This document shows, one piece after another, positions 1,559-9,915 of a stretch of DNA of 64,000 nt. The translations under genes were made by a program, and so were the position numbers. The DNA is from Sphingobacterium faecium (GTDB lineage Bacteria; Bacteroidota; Bacteroidia; Sphingobacteriales; Sphingobacteriaceae), in assembly GCF_003054045.1 (NCBI RefSeq), contig NZ_QBKH01000004.1, positions 248,001 through 312,000 on the forward strand. The letters run 5' to 3'. Numbering within the stretch: the first letter of the stretch is position 1; each line of letters begins with the position of its first letter. Below the pieces are notes generated by a model. That model had not been told where the DNA came from. It did not search any database and was given only the letters and a program-made list of their open reading frames with translations.

Positions 1559-1566
1559 TAACTTTG
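1559..1566 (+). promoter_or_regulatory. Promoter -7 box for the DUF1684-deformylase gene
   Basis: TAACTTTG fits TAnnTTTG exactly. It overlaps the TTG at 1564 that opens the longest reading frame, so that TTG cannot be the translation start. The ATG at 1588, about 18 nt after the predicted transcription start, is preferred. Confidence 0.5.
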
Positions 1567-1587: not shown

Positions 1588-2814
1588 ATGAAATACACCA
1601 TATTAATTGGGCTTTTCTTAATTACTTCAAGTATCAAAGCAAATGCACAAGATTATCAAACACGTATTGTTCAAGATCGACAAGAGAAAGCACTGAGCTT
1701 ATCAAAATCAAAATTTGGCCCACTGCCAGCAGATCAAGTCCAGTTTTTAGATTATTTTCCAGTTGACAAAGCTTATCGCGTTACTGCAGATGTCACGTTA
1801 TTATTGGGCGAAGAAACCTTCAAGATGCCCACATATGATGGCACCAGCAATCCTTATAAACGATATGCTATCTTAAATTTCACCTTGAATAATAAGCCCT
1901 ATCAATTGACCGTTTATCAAAGTGCTGCACTATTTCAAAATCCTCAGTACAAAAACCATCTTTTCCTTCCATTTTTAGATTTAACAAATGGTCAAGAAAG
2001 CTATAGTGGTGGACGTTATATTGATTTAGCAACAACAGATATTATAGGAGGTAAAGCAACAATTGATTTTAATGCTGCATACAATCCCTATTGCGCATAT
2101 AGTAACGGTTATCGTTGCCCTGTACCACCACAAGAAAACATTTTAGAGACCAAGATCATGGCTGGAGAAAAAGCATTTCATAAACAAAAAAACGAGAGGC
2201 CTGTAGATATTCAAGCAGGACAAAATTTTAGTCAAGAAGATTTGGTGATCATCAATCAGGGTTCACAAACTGATAAATTCAGAATATTACAAATCACAGA
2301 TCAAAAAGATCTAAGCATATTAACAACAACATCTTCTGATCTTAAATACAACGATCCATCGATACCAACTTTAGAGAAAAGAATGTTGATTACCGTTCAG
2401 GATCCGGCACATGCAGGCGTTGGCATTGCTGCTCCTCAAATAGGAATCAATAAAAACTTGATCGTGGTACAAAGATTTGACAAGGAAGGAGAACCATTTG
2501 AAAGTTATATCAACCCTAAAATTATCTGGAGATCAAAATTTACTAGAAAAGGAGTAGAAGGTTGCCTATCCATACCTGATCGCAGAGAGGAAGTATTAAG
2601 AAGCTACACCATCCGATTACAGCACATCAATAAAGATGGGAAAATAATAGAAGAAAATATTGAAGGATTTACCGCCGTTATTTTTCAGCACGAAGTAGAT
2701 CACCTATATGGCATTTTATATCCTGATCGTATAGAACAAGCTGAAAAAGAAGAATTCGAACCTTTAAGTGATAAAATGGAGTTTTATATAAAGCCAAACA
2801 CGATACGTCCATAA
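1588..2814 (+). CDS. Exported DUF1684-peptide deformylase fusion protein
   Basis: From the ATG at 1588 the protein has 408 residues. Residues 1-21 form a signal peptide ending in KANAQ. Residues about 37-200 match DUF1684 (motifs GGRYIDL, then DFNAAYNPYCAYS, CPVPPQEN and MAGE). Residues about 235-385 are a complete peptide deformylase: motif I GVGIAAPQIG at 277-286, motif II EGCLSIP from 324 with the metal Cys, and motif III QHEVDH at 367-372 with the HExxDH metal site. Deformylases normally work on nascent chains in the cytoplasm, so an exported one fused to DUF1684 is unusual. All metal ligands are intact, so it should be active. Substrate unknown. Confidence 0.85.
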   Translation: MKYTILIGLFLITSSIKANAQDYQTRIVQDRQEKALSLSKSKFGPLPADQVQFLDYFPVDKAYRVTADVTLLLGEETFKMPTYDGTSNPYKRYAILNFTLNNKPYQLTVYQSAALFQNPQYKNHLFLPFLDLTNGQESYSGGRYIDLATTDIIGGKATIDFNAAYNPYCAYSNGYRCPVPPQENILETKIMAGEKAFHKQKNERPVDIQAGQNFSQEDLVIINQGSQTDKFRILQITDQKDLSILTTTSSDLKYNDPSIPTLEKRMLITVQDPAHAGVGIAAPQIGINKNLIVVQRFDKEGEPFESYINPKIIWRSKFTRKGVEGCLSIPDRREEVLRSYTIRLQHINKDGKIIEENIEGFTAVIFQHEVDHLYGILYPDRIEQAEKEEFEPLSDKMEFYIKPNTIRP

Positions 2815-3506: not shown

Positions 3507-4544
3507 TTAACGAGCAATCATCTTGATTTCAAATAAGGTATTCCAAAGCTTTCCTGTCACAAATAATCGTTTTCCGACATGATCATAAGCAATACCATTC
3601 AGCTCATTATCATACTGCGCATGTTGATAGATCCCAACTAAGTTAATTCTGCCTTCTACAACACCAGTTTCTGGGTTTATAATCGCGATAATATCCTTTT
3701 CATATACATTCGCATATACTTTACCATCAATATACTCCAACTCATTTAAAGCATTTACTTGACCATTTTCATCATATACATCAATAGAACTTAATTCTTG
3801 TTGTGTATGTGCATCTAAAAAGTAAAGCTTATTGGTGCCATCTGATTTAATCAATCGTTTACCATCATAAGTGATTCCCCATCCTTCTTTACTATTGGTA
3901 TATGGAAAAGTTTTCTCCAATTCAAAAGTTGATTTATTAAGAACGAAACCTTCCATATTCTGCCAGGTCAACATCACGATTTTATCTCCAACAATGGTCA
4001 TCCCCTCTCCGAAATATTTTTCGGAATCAAAATCTTTTCGCTGTAATACTTTACCCGTTTTCAGATCAACGCGTCTAATCGAAGTTTTTGTACCACCTCC
4101 ACTACCAGTGGATTCATATAGAAATCCATTTTCATATTGTAAACCTTGGGTAAAGGCTGTGGTGTCATGTGGAAACTTATTCACAATCTCGAAACTATAT
4201 TCTTTAGGAGCTGGCGGCACAATGCTGATATAGGCACTAGCACTATCAATCTGTGTCCCTTGATAAACTTTTGCTGAAATACTGCGAGTACCTAAAGCCA
4301 GCTGCTTACTATCCACCTGCACCGCTGCTGTATCTTTTCCAGAAGCAACAACCTGATTGTCGATATAATAGACAACTGAATCTAGATCAGACGATGAAAA
4401 TTTAAGTTGAAATTGAATAGGATCTCCTTGTTGGATGGATTTACTTGCATCGGGCTGGGCAAATTCTAATTTACCTGACTTCTTCGTTTTACAGGAACTT
4501 AAACCTAGTATTAAACCTAAAAGTATATATGTTGTTTTTTTCAT
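3507..4544 (-). CDS. Glutaminyl-peptide cyclotransferase, lipoprotein
   Basis: I place the start at the ATG at 4544 because it opens a lipoprotein signal (MKKTTYILLGLILGLSSC, lipobox L-S-S-C). The longer frame would run into the upstream YraN-type gene. The mature protein has an Ig/Big-like N-terminal segment of about 100 residues, then a beta-propeller matching bacterial glutamine cyclotransferases: PHDTTAFTQGLQYENGFLYES, later WGITYDGKRLIKSDGT and LNELEYIDGKVYANVY. The family converts N-terminal Gln of peptides to pyroglutamate. In Bacteroidota many exported proteins expose N-terminal Gln after signal cleavage, so this periplasmic enzyme could cap them. Confidence 0.88.
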   Translation of the reverse strand: MKKTTYILLGLILGLSSCKTKKSGKLEFAQPDASKSIQQGDPIQFQLKFSSSDLDSVVYYIDNQVVASGKDTAAVQVDSKQLALGTRSISAKVYQGTQIDSASAYISIVPPAPKEYSFEIVNKFPHDTTAFTQGLQYENGFLYESTGSGGGTKTSIRRVDLKTGKVLQRKDFDSEKYFGEGMTIVGDKIVMLTWQNMEGFVLNKSTFELEKTFPYTNSKEGWGITYDGKRLIKSDGTNKLYFLDAHTQQELSSIDVYDENGQVNALNELEYIDGKVYANVYEKDIIAIINPETGVVEGRINLVGIYQHAQYDNELNGIAYDHVGKRLFVTGKLWNTLFEIKMIAR

Positions 4545-4557
4545 ATAAAATAACCTT

Positions 4558-4920
4558 TTATTCATTCCAGAACGCATCTTTGATATGTTCTAATTGTATA
4601 TTTTCTTTATCTGCGATAAGAATGGAAATAATATCAAACCGAATCTCTCCATGCACATCATATTTCTTTAAATAATAATCAGCGGCTCTCGTCAATTTTC
4701 GCTTCTTTTTCCAGTCAACAAACTCAAATGGTTCTCCATATTCGACTTTACTTCGGGTCTTCACTTCTACAAAAACTAGCGTATCCGAATCCTTGACAAT
4801 CAAATCTACTTCTAAATTCTTACATCGCCAATTTCTTAACAAAATTTCACACCCCAAATCCTGCAAGAATTTTTCTGCATATGATTCTCCTAATCTTCCA
4901 AAATCCAGGTGCTTTGCCAT
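4558..4920 (-). CDS. YraN family (UPF0102) nuclease-fold protein
   Basis: This 120-residue protein has the UPF0102 layout: a GESYAEKFLQ helix near the N-terminus, Asp in EVDLIVKD, then VFVEVKTRS, giving the D-(E-x-K) core of the PD-(D/E)xK nuclease fold, followed by a KKKRKLTRAADYYL helix. Function is not settled; a resolvase-type role has been proposed for the family. It lies three bases downstream of dnaG, so it is co-transcribed with the primase. Confidence 0.88.
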   Translation of the reverse strand: MAKHLDFGRLGESYAEKFLQDLGCEILLRNWRCKNLEVDLIVKDSDTLVFVEVKTRSKVEYGEPFEFVDWKKKRKLTRAADYYLKKYDVHGEIRFDIISILIADKENIQLEHIKDAFWNE

Positions 4921-7803: not shown

Positions 7804-9915
7804 TTAATTCAATCCTCTTTTTATTAATAAGTATTTTGGATCCGGGTCAGCACCTCTAAACGTTTTATACATTTGTGCTGGATCTCCTGTACCTCCTTTT
7901 TCTAAGATATTACGACGGAATGAATCTGCGGTTGGCTGATCATACAATGATTTTTCTTTAAAAGCTGCAAAAGCATCGGAATCTAATACCTCAGACCAGA
8001 TATAAGCATAGTAACCCGCTGAATAACCTCCGGCAAAAATATGCTGAAAATAAGTGCTTCTATATCGCGGTATAATGGCATCGATTAAACCAATCTTCAT
8101 CATGGCACCTTTTTCAAAATCATTGATATTACCCGTGATTGGCGAAGTAGCAGCATGGTAGTTCATGTCCAATAAGGAAGCTGCTAAATATTCCACTGTT
8201 GCAAAACCTTGATCAAAAGTTCCTGCTTTCTCCATTTTTGTAATGAGAGAATCTGGTATTGCTTCTTTTGTTTTATAATGCTTCGCATACTCTTTTAACA
8301 CTTGTGGATCTGCTGCCCAATTTTCCATCACCTGAGAAGGCAGCTCTACAAAATCTCTGGAAACAGATGTACCAGCTAAACTTCTATATTTTACGTTGGA
8401 TAATAATCCATGTAGGGCATGTCCAAACTCGTGGAATAAAGTAGTTGCTTCGTCAAAAGTTAATAATGCTGGTTGATCACCTACAGGTTTTGTAAAATTA
8501 CAAACGATCGAGATGACAGGAGCATTGCGTTTACCTTCAGTTTTACTTTGGTTACGATATGATGTCATCCAAGCACCGCTTCTTTTAGATTCGCGAGGGA
8601 AAAAATCAGCATATAATAGACCTAAATGAGACCCATCTTTGTCTTTTACTTCGTAGACTTCAACATCCTTTTGATAAACAGGAACATTATTAAGAGCAAC
8701 GAATGTCAAACCGTATAATTTGTTCGCTACTGCAAAAGCTCCTTCTCTTACTGTAGGTAAACTAAAATAAGGTTTGATCTCTTCTTCGTTTAATGCGAAT
8801 CTTTTCTTACGAATAATCTCGGTATAGTATCTCCAATCATATGGTGCTACTTCAAAATTTCCACCTTCAGCTAGGATTTCTTTATTGATATCTGCGGCTT
8901 CACCTTTTGCTTTATTGAGCGCCGGTGCCCACAATTTATTTAACAAGGCATATACATTTGTAGGATTTTCAGCCATGGATTCTTCCAACACGAATGCTGC
9001 ATGAGATGGATAACCTAATAATTTTGCTTTCGCTAATCTCAGGTTCGCCATCTTGCGCAAGATCTCCTTATTATCAGTGGCATCATCATGATTGCCTTGT
9101 GTTTGGTATGCTTCCCAAATCTGTTTTCTTAATTCTCTATTTTTAGCATATTGCAAGAATGGCATGATAGAAGGGTTTTGTAGTGTAAAAACCCATTTTC
9201 CTTCTTTACCTTTTACTTTAGCCTCGTCGGCAGCAGCAGACTTCAAAGCCTCTGGCAAACCTTCCAATTGTGAAGCACTGTCCACAACCAATTCGAATGC
9301 TTTTGATTCGGTCATCAAATTTTGTCCGAACTGTACTGTTAATGATGATAATTCTGAATTGATTTTTTTCAATTTTTCTTTATCCGTATCTTTCAAATTT
9401 GCACCTGAACGGACAAATGATTTATAGGTTTCATCCAACAATTTATTGTCTTCACCATCTAAGCCTAAAGTTGCTTTTTTAGACCAAACAGCCTTGACTC
9501 TATCAAATAACTTAGCATTTAAGGAGATTTCATCCTGATGCGCAGACAATACAGGAGCTAGTTCTTTAGCGATAGCCTTAAGGCTATCGTTACTATTGGC
9601 TGAGTTTAAATTAGAAAAAACCGTAGATACATTTGCCAACAGTTTACCAGCATTTTCTAACGCTAAAATGGTATTGTTAAAAGATGGATCTTCTGTATTA
9701 TTAATAATTGTATCGATTTCTAAATTATGAACCTTAAGTGCTTCTTCAAAAGCTGGTTTGAAATGTTCGTCTTTAATTTTATCAAATGGAGGAACATTGA
9801 ATGGAGTATCATAGGTCAATAATAGTGGATTGTCTGTCATTTGTTTCTTTTGTTCGCAACCAACAAAGGCTGTTGCCAAAATTAAAAAAAATGGCAAAAG
9901 TCGTTTTTTCTTCAT
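7804..9915 (-). CDS. M3 family oligopeptidase (Dcp-like), lipoprotein
   Basis: The 703-residue zinc peptidase has a signal sequence with a plausible lipobox (V-G-C before EQKK). The family core is intact: HEFGHALHGLLS near residue 494 with the HExxH zinc site, a downstream FVELPSQVMENW segment supplying the third ligand, and the C-terminal GYSAGYYAYIWSEVL motif that shapes the substrate channel. Relatives are oligopeptidase A and peptidyl-dipeptidase Dcp, which degrade short peptides. The lipid anchor points to the periplasm. It has its own promoter and terminator. Confidence 0.92.
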   Translation of the reverse strand: MKKKRLLPFFLILATAFVGCEQKKQMTDNPLLLTYDTPFNVPPFDKIKDEHFKPAFEEALKVHNLEIDTIINNTEDPSFNNTILALENAGKLLANVSTVFSNLNSANSNDSLKAIAKELAPVLSAHQDEISLNAKLFDRVKAVWSKKATLGLDGEDNKLLDETYKSFVRSGANLKDTDKEKLKKINSELSSLTVQFGQNLMTESKAFELVVDSASQLEGLPEALKSAAADEAKVKGKEGKWVFTLQNPSIMPFLQYAKNRELRKQIWEAYQTQGNHDDATDNKEILRKMANLRLAKAKLLGYPSHAAFVLEESMAENPTNVYALLNKLWAPALNKAKGEAADINKEILAEGGNFEVAPYDWRYYTEIIRKKRFALNEEEIKPYFSLPTVREGAFAVANKLYGLTFVALNNVPVYQKDVEVYEVKDKDGSHLGLLYADFFPRESKRSGAWMTSYRNQSKTEGKRNAPVISIVCNFTKPVGDQPALLTFDEATTLFHEFGHALHGLLSNVKYRSLAGTSVSRDFVELPSQVMENWAADPQVLKEYAKHYKTKEAIPDSLITKMEKAGTFDQGFATVEYLAASLLDMNYHAATSPITGNINDFEKGAMMKIGLIDAIIPRYRSTYFQHIFAGGYSAGYYAYIWSEVLDSDAFAAFKEKSLYDQPTADSFRRNILEKGGTGDPAQMYKTFRGADPDPKYLLIKRGLN

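Follow-up and report, generated by a model that had tools for sequence, protein, structure and literature searches.

A peptide deformylase fused to DUF1684 in Sphingobacterium faecium belongs to a Bacteroidota clade of apparently exported deformylases

The window analyzed here is a stretch of 64,000 nucleotides from Sphingobacterium faecium (contig NZ_QBKH01000004.1, positions 248,001 to 312,000), and its features are listed in Table 1. An earlier note, made from the sequence of the window, had described one continuous frame carrying a signal peptide, a DUF1684 domain, and a peptide deformylase (PDF) with its three metal motifs, a description that the ORF, the Pfam matches, and the motifs bear out. 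The protein scored well above the curated cutoffs for PF01327 (127.9 bits against 22.8) and PF07920, the DUF1684 family (147.8 against 25), and also passed that for TIGR00079 (114.6 against 103.95), but it failed that for PRK00150.1-3 (117.5 against 125) and those of four narrower models. All three PDF motifs (GxGxAAxQ, EGCLS, and QHExDH) are intact. From the PDF family, we take His368 and His372 of motif 3 to be metal ligands and Glu369 to be the catalytic residue. Twenty-one bases upstream of the ATG, window positions 1559 to 1566 read TAACTTTG, which resembles the Bacteroidota -7 promoter element. The N terminus, MKYTILIGLFLITSSIKANA|QDY, is consistent under a home-made heuristic with cleavage by signal peptidase I directly before Gln, and its hydrophobic start and the small residue preceding Gln would be those of a Sec/SPI protein of the Q-rule type. 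The Bacteroidetes Q-rule, by which Gln stands directly after the signal peptidase I site, is described in a portion of PMC5837995.

Table 1. Features of the fusion gene and its convergent neighbor in the window.
Feature	Position in window	Strand	Basis
Whole gene: signal peptide (predicted), DUF1684, and peptide deformylase, 408 aa	1588..2814	+	single ORF 1588-2811 plus stop
Predicted signal peptide, residues 1-20, then Gln21, site ANA|Q	1588..1647	+	sequence; pattern repeated in relatives; Q-rule as given in part of PMC5837995
DUF1684, residues 54-195	1747..2172	+	Pfam E 3.1e-43; model aligns to 4dlh/4fj4
CX7C pair of DUF1684, Cys169 and Cys177	2092..2118	+	sequence; CX7C in relatives
Linker, residues 206-227	2203..2268	+	bounds set by eye from Pfam and model domain limits
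Peptide deformylase (PDF) domain, residues 235-387	2290..2748	+	Pep_deformylase Pfam E 3.4e-37; fold match 1lme_B
PDF motif 1, GVGIAAPQ, residues 277-284	2416..2439	+	sequence
Clade-specific stretch QRFDKEGEPFE (R296, D298, P303, E305)	2470..2502	+	conserved in exported rows, not in canonical rows
PDF motif 2, EGCLS, residues 324-328, metal ligand Cys326	2557..2571	+	sequence
PDF motif 3, QHEVDH, residues 367-372	2686..2703	+	sequence
C-terminal tail, which lacks the basic extension seen in canonical PDFs	2749..2811	+	tail length and charge comparison
Glutaminyl cyclase (Glu_cyclase_2), convergent neighbor, context only	3507..4577	-	Pfam E 5.4e-83

An AlphaFold2 model built from a 37-row alignment contained two well-folded domains (mean pLDDT, 89.3; pTM, 0.75). 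The PDF part matched 1lme_B with a Z score of 22.1 (rmsd 1.4 over 147 aligned residues), and across 1lme_B, 6jf3_B, and 6jf5_A the rmsd was 1.2 to 1.4 over 142 to 147 residues. The DUF1684 part matched the haloarchaeal structures 4dlh and 4fj4 with Z scores of 22.6 and 22.5, respectively, the domain alone reaching 22.6 against 4fj4_B (rmsd 2.2, 173 aligned). Only the four PDB entries of the DUF1684 family itself scored against the domain alone, a result that does not show a new fold. Comparison of the window gene with that of genome G237 gave dN/dS values of 0.059 for DUF1684 and 0.046 for the PDF, and three further computable domain comparisons gave 0.023 and 0.061 for DUF1684 and 0.020 for the PDF; in three others dS was saturated and yielded no value. 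Both domains are thus under purifying selection.

The source genome contains two PDF matches, the window gene and a canonical def (G000:C4:560938-561420) whose frame has no export signal by our heuristic, confirming the separate cytoplasmic def that the earlier note had looked to. Because this separate canonical def exists, the window gene, which is conserved, is not the housekeeping deformylase. Canonical def was found in all 36 checked genomes with an exported PDF and also in 8 Sphingobacterium genomes without one. The single DUF1684 copy of the source genome is the one within the fusion. Additional PDF copies with canonical-like scores were seen in other genomes (G223:C3:113433-113933; G057, contigs C11 and C23; G028, C15; G045, C35; and G601, C303).

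We scanned named genomes with the PDF part, using two patterns around motif 3, and worked with the best 80 of at least 583 confirmed relatives. Judged from titles, all 80 come from Bacteroidota, including Sphingobacterium, Parapedobacter, Flavobacterium, Empedobacter, Chryseobacterium, Elizabethkingia, Lewinella, Reichenbachiella, and others, as well as Alistipes and Prevotellaceae; the scan patterns are clade specific, and the scan therefore says nothing on phyla beyond Bacteroidota. For a PDF tree, frames with motifs 1 and 3 (163 frames, 151 distinct crops) were thinned at 82% identity to 81 rows, to which 28 canonical rows were added and from which 5 Sphingobacterium rows were removed. The resulting 104 rows take in 53 of the 80 named loci, with L160 excluded by the motif filter; among them, 35 are canonical, 7 labeled by N-terminal pattern and 28 being the best PF01327 matches. 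A branch with an SH-aLRT value of 100, from a quick method with no bootstrap, split 69 exported from 35 canonical rows, and a profile made from the exported rows gave scores of at least 187.4 bits for those rows and of at most 121.2 bits for the canonical ones. The window PDF domain therefore belongs to one Bacteroidota clade of deformylases that are apparently exported. In an even sample of 395 Bacteroidota genomes (E 1e-45), 10 contained an exported PDF, and this patchiness, together with absence from 8 of 70 Sphingobacterium genomes, indicates that the exported PDF is not essential.

Export signals were called with the home-made heuristic, in which start codons are picked by hydrophobicity alone and individual calls can err. 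By this heuristic, 63 of the 69 exported rows have a signal-peptide-like N terminus (37 lipobox-like, 19 with a small residue before Gln, and 7 hydrophobic only) and 6 have none, whereas 34 of the 35 canonical rows have no signal and 1 is hydrophobic only. Two rows called as signal-less, L126 and L138, are subthreshold cases with a lipobox visible by eye, and L018, called as having a lipobox, is probably not a lipoprotein. Four members of the exported clade (L026, L083, L095, and L117) seem to be truly without an export signal and may be truncated, misstarted, or cytoplasmic. All 37 fusions that we compared have a hydrophobic start and then Gln after A, G, or S, a feature by which the start was partly picked.

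Among the same best 80 of at least 583 loci, motif 1 occurred in its strict form in 79, the exception being L160 with GVGISAPQ; HExDH, for which the scan partly searched, occurred in 80; and motif 2 occurred in 80, with Cys in 60 and Asp in 20. Because the tree rows were selected by motifs 1 and 3, the conservation of these two motifs there is partly built in. Residues outside this selection were also retained: E324 and R338 are present in all 69 exported rows and G325 in 68, and position 326 is Cys in 65 and Asp in 4. Four further residues set the clade apart, as R296, D298, and P303 (69 of 69 exported rows) and E305 (68 of 69) are not conserved across the 35 canonical rows, and a loose R-x-D...P-x-E pattern was found in 78 of the best 80 of at least 583 loci. 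By E. coli numbering, this stretch would belong to a loop close to where the peptide binds, through which the exported PDFs may possibly have an altered specificity. Val or Ile takes the place of the canonical Arg at position 364 in 67 of 69 exported rows, a replacement that the scan patterns favor. At a site that we equate with E. coli R97, Arg occurs in 35 of 69 exported rows compared to 23 of 35 canonical rows.

The exported and canonical rows also differ after HExDH, in a comparison that ignores the relatedness of rows. The tail of exported PDFs has a median of 19.5 residues and a net charge of -1 (n = 66, after exclusion of two fusions and of one chain that runs off the end of its locus), and that of canonical PDFs has a median of 42 residues and a charge of +5 (n = 35), the charge being +3 or more in 26 and less than +3 in 9. 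The window PDF has a tail of 36 residues with a net charge of -3 and is without a basic C-terminal tail. Such a tail is not a requirement of the PDF family but marks the housekeeping type. Sections of PMC12690207 link the PDF C-terminal tail to ribosome association.

Replacement of the metal-ligand Cys by Asp, giving EGDLS as motif 2, defines a subclade. Its 20 loci among the best 80 of at least 583 (L097-L103, L106-L108, L112, L113, L115, L118, L120, L123, L128, L130, L142, and L144) are from Chryseobacterium, Epilithonimonas, Elizabethkingia, and one Weeksellaceae MAG. The replacement maps to one change on the tree, where 4 such rows remained after thinning, and the canonical def of Weeksellaceae keeps EGCLS in the three cases inspected (L190, L191, and L193). 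A thiolate-bound iron site would be open to oxidation outside the cytoplasm, and a carboxylate ligand would withstand oxidation better than a thiolate. The subclade can be regarded as an experiment of nature on a metal site sensitive to oxidation.

The fusion itself is widespread in two genera. In an order sample of 300 genomes, 70 of them Sphingobacterium, 51 of these 70 contained the full-length fusion, 1 (G239) had a match cut by the contig start, 10 had the PDF part alone, and 8 had neither at E 1e-20. Among nine Parapedobacter genomes in a family sample of 151, the domains were fused in 6, the PDF stood alone in 2, and 1 was without it. Because full-length fusions recur in Sphingobacterium and Parapedobacter (L087 and L091, respectively, in the named-genome set), chance fusion and assembly error, the latter a concern of the earlier note, are ruled out, and the domain pair does occur elsewhere in Bacteroidota. 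None of the 10 PDF-only Sphingobacterium genomes contained DUF1684 at E 1e-20. The PDF-only genes of L082 and L024 carry apparent DUF1684 stubs (SSGYRCPVLPGEQ... and KKYIGPTNESPVNK, respectively). The fused DUF1684s formed one clade among the standalone DUF1684s of the family (SH-aLRT 96; 11 of 39 rows, in a tree with long branches elsewhere). The free PDF tree separated the two fusion genera weakly, and grouping all 12 PDFs that are or once were fused into a single clade was not rejected (p-AU 0.451). Two origins of the fusion are not favored by these results. Since the fused DUF1684s form one clade and the stubs of L024 and L082 fit, the fusion probably arose once, and one fusion followed by loss of DUF1684 in some relatives is the simplest reading.

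DUF1684 was found in 196 of the 395 sampled Bacteroidota, in 9 of the 10 genomes with an exported PDF and in 187 of the 385 without one, a co-occurrence that is not independent evidence because 7 of the 10 genomes belong to one family and 2 have fusions. The 10 PDF-only Sphingobacterium genomes rule out DUF1684 as an obligate PDF partner. Furthermore, in the loci examined, exported PDFs that keep Cys almost never carry an attached DUF1684 in genera other than Sphingobacterium and Parapedobacter, indicating that the exported PDF does not generally need this domain. The idea that the fusion gives a first clue to DUF1684 does not hold up against these data, as each of the two, exported PDF and DUF1684, is commonly found without the other. 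That idea was also preempted by work on a haloarchaeal DUF1684 gene: in the part of PMC9426492 that treats it, the CX7C pair is pointed out for HVO_1043, and on this basis the gene is assigned to a group of thiol-relay genes that the oxidative-stress regulator OxsR binds.

In a 39-row DUF1684 alignment, which leaves out L052 and L059, residues D131, T133, Y139, G142, D160, F161, N162, and Y165 (window numbering) were invariant, as were N166, P167, C169, C177, A192, and G193, the latter wholly or partly due to the row-picking pattern. When Cys was left out of the search criteria, 65 distinct DUF1684 frames were obtained, of which 64 have CX7C and one, L059, has CX8C. These conserved residues look like a functional site. 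A redox or protective role for DUF1684 next to an oxidation-prone metal site is attractive, and the domain is likeliest an accessory one, for positioning, substrate capture, or redox protection, rather than an obligate partner. Longer DUF1684 proteins with an additional N-terminal part were seen at L075, L077, and L085 (frames of 314 to 320 residues).

The recurrent neighbors of the exported PDF are lineage specific, and no operon common to lineages was found among the 22 largest neighbor clusters (80 loci; 16 loci in detail). A heme-use cluster lies upstream in 16 Chryseobacterium-type loci, including L097-L103; at L103, HemS and ChaN were confirmed by Pfam, and roughly 240 bp separate ChaN from the PDF gene. 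In eight loci (L132, L136, L137, L146, L149, L155, L156, and L164), an exported PDF lipoprotein follows genes like mreD, PBP2, and rodA, named by eye. The glutaminyl cyclase of the window, an enzyme of the Q-rule type, is convergent with the fusion gene at a distance of 692 bases, and one apparently lies near the PDF in L024 and L025 too (by eye), but none was recognized among the 22 largest neighbor clusters of the best 80 of at least 583 loci. We do not claim glutaminyl cyclase as part of an exported-PDF system, and note as a side observation that both window proteins would act on the N termini of exported proteins. By eye, window positions 7804-9915 (minus strand) appear to encode an exported M3-type peptidyl-dipeptidase lipoprotein. 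Exported PDFs also occur in other fusions: in L116 (3911-6226, 772 residues), Pfam identified a lipoprotein-like PDF joined to Peptidase_M14, a zinc carboxypeptidase, and L127:3911-6226 has the same length (Pfam was run on L116 only). At L119:3827-5155, an exported PDF shares its reading frame with a flavin-reductase-like domain, through either a real fusion or a lost stop codon.

Export signals across the clade, active-site motifs, fold, purifying selection, a separate def, and the missing basic tail form the computed basis of a proposal to which we give an even chance, that the window protein would be an exported, catalytically competent PDF deformylating fMet N termini and peptides at the envelope. 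Export itself, activity, formyl-peptide substrates, and their physiological source are what we infer beyond that basis. Acting in the periplasm or at the envelope, such an enzyme would remove formyl from fMet-starting N termini and peptides that slipped past the cytoplasmic enzyme, candidates being signal-peptide fragments, N-out membrane proteins, and peptides from outside. The products would be formate and a free alpha-amino group, from which envelope aminopeptidases could continue. As covered in parts of PMC5454389, SRP binding blocks deformylation in vitro, and retention of the formyl group has been reported or proposed for signal peptides as well as for SRP-dependent and N-out proteins. 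The fusion of a lipoprotein-like homologue to Peptidase_M14 supports peptide substrates. The earlier note had suggested another formylated substrate, either peptides in the envelope or groups on sugars or lipids; this one PDF-carboxypeptidase fusion lends slight support to peptides, and sugars and lipids found no support, leaving the interpretation of that note partly supported. Counting against our proposal are the 6 of 69 signal-less rows, Arg in only 35 of 69 rows at the putative R97 site, the lack of a gene context shared by lineages among the 22 largest neighbor clusters, the patchy clade, the partly built-in conservation of motifs 1 and 3, and the oxidation that a thiolate-bound iron site would face in the envelope.

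Some of this evidence could be read in other ways. The lipoprotein-like and secreted-type N termini, the M14 fusion, and the patchy distribution would also suit an exported PDF that mainly deblocks environmental formyl-peptides rather than the cell's own N termini, with peptides from other bacteria or from lysis being eaten or being silenced towards animals. We consider such scavenging or hiding from a host unlikely, as the 22 largest neighbor clusters revealed no cross-lineage nutrient-uptake locus, although one lineage has the heme-use cluster, and many members are free-living, judged from their names. It is quite unlikely, in our estimate, that deformylase activity has been lost or nearly so and that the domain persists as a binding or structural module like some type 3 accessory PDFs; inactive type 3 PDFs are recounted in sections of PMC12690207, and the metal-ligand Cys has become Asp in 20 of the best 80 of at least 583 loci, but Cys is kept in 60 of these 80, the window protein retains all three motifs, and purifying selection is strong.

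The clade-specific R296, D298, P303, and E305 hint at an altered specificity and could point to a nonpeptide substrate, such as a formylated amino sugar of a surface polysaccharide or a formylated metabolite. We regard this as distinctly improbable given that the peptide deformylase motifs are retained and that no sugar-formylation or polysaccharide genes were spotted by eye in the 22 largest neighbor clusters. Lastly, variability in the exported clade at the Arg site equated with R97 invites the thought that the exported PDF protects against PDF inhibitors as an envelope decoy. Parts of PMC12690207 describe accessory PDFs that can lower actinonin susceptibility via an Arg substitution, but an exported enzyme cannot stand in for cytoplasmic activity, making a decoy extremely improbable.

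Building on deformylation of fMet N termini and peptides at the envelope, we put forward a broader joint claim tentatively and with more doubt than confidence: Bacteroidota may have an extracytoplasmic N-terminal processing in which an exported or lipid-anchored PDF works beside the Q-rule glutaminyl cyclase and has oxidation-adapted metal sites. The PDF would complete the removal of formyl groups from signal peptides, envelope peptides, and membrane proteins of the N-out type, and in parts of the clade its metal site would have been refitted, by the Cys-to-Asp change in a Weeksellaceae subclade and possibly by the DUF1684 fusion in Sphingobacterium and Parapedobacter.

The usual view places deformylation in the cytoplasm, close to where the nascent chain leaves the ribosome. 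The window gene is predicted to encode an active, exported peptide deformylase, for which both the compartment and the domain arrangement would be new. Given an apparently exported PDF clade, the fate of envelope formyl groups becomes directly testable by a one-gene deletion, and the clade bears on formyl-peptide signaling to animals by Bacteroidota. The role, if any, of keeping formyl groups is described as not known in the sections of PMC5454389 that address it. Among the matches listed for the open-access literature, we found no earlier description of an exported PDF or of a DUF1684-PDF fusion.

For the PDF part, the closest solved folds by titles and scores are Thermotoga 1lme and two Acinetobacter entries, 6jf3 and 6jf5, whose titles give class I type b. 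The window DUF1684 shares its fold and CX7C pair with the PF07920 family (haloarchaeal 4dlh, 4fj4, 2lok, and 2lnu), but the solved chains of 176 to 197 residues have the size of one domain, whereas the window protein adds a predicted export signal and the PDF fusion. The accessory PDFs surveyed across 5,042 reference genomes in PMC12690207 (2025), including Vibrio Def2, integron PDFs, and an Exiguobacterium def-fmt fusion, resemble the window PDF in standing beside a canonical one, and Vibrio Def2 has an altered C-terminal tail, as in the exported clade. In contrast, the abstract, some sections, and the main-text terms of that paper mention neither DUF1684, fused or otherwise, nor any PDF that is exported or a lipoprotein, and contain no word starting with Bacteroid-. 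Relative to Def (PF01327/TIGR00079), the window PDF is without the basic C-terminal tail, has a predicted export signal, an N-terminal DUF1684, and the R-x-D...P-x-E motif, and falls in a separate clade, and yet the two have in common the fold, the three motifs, and the metal ligands.
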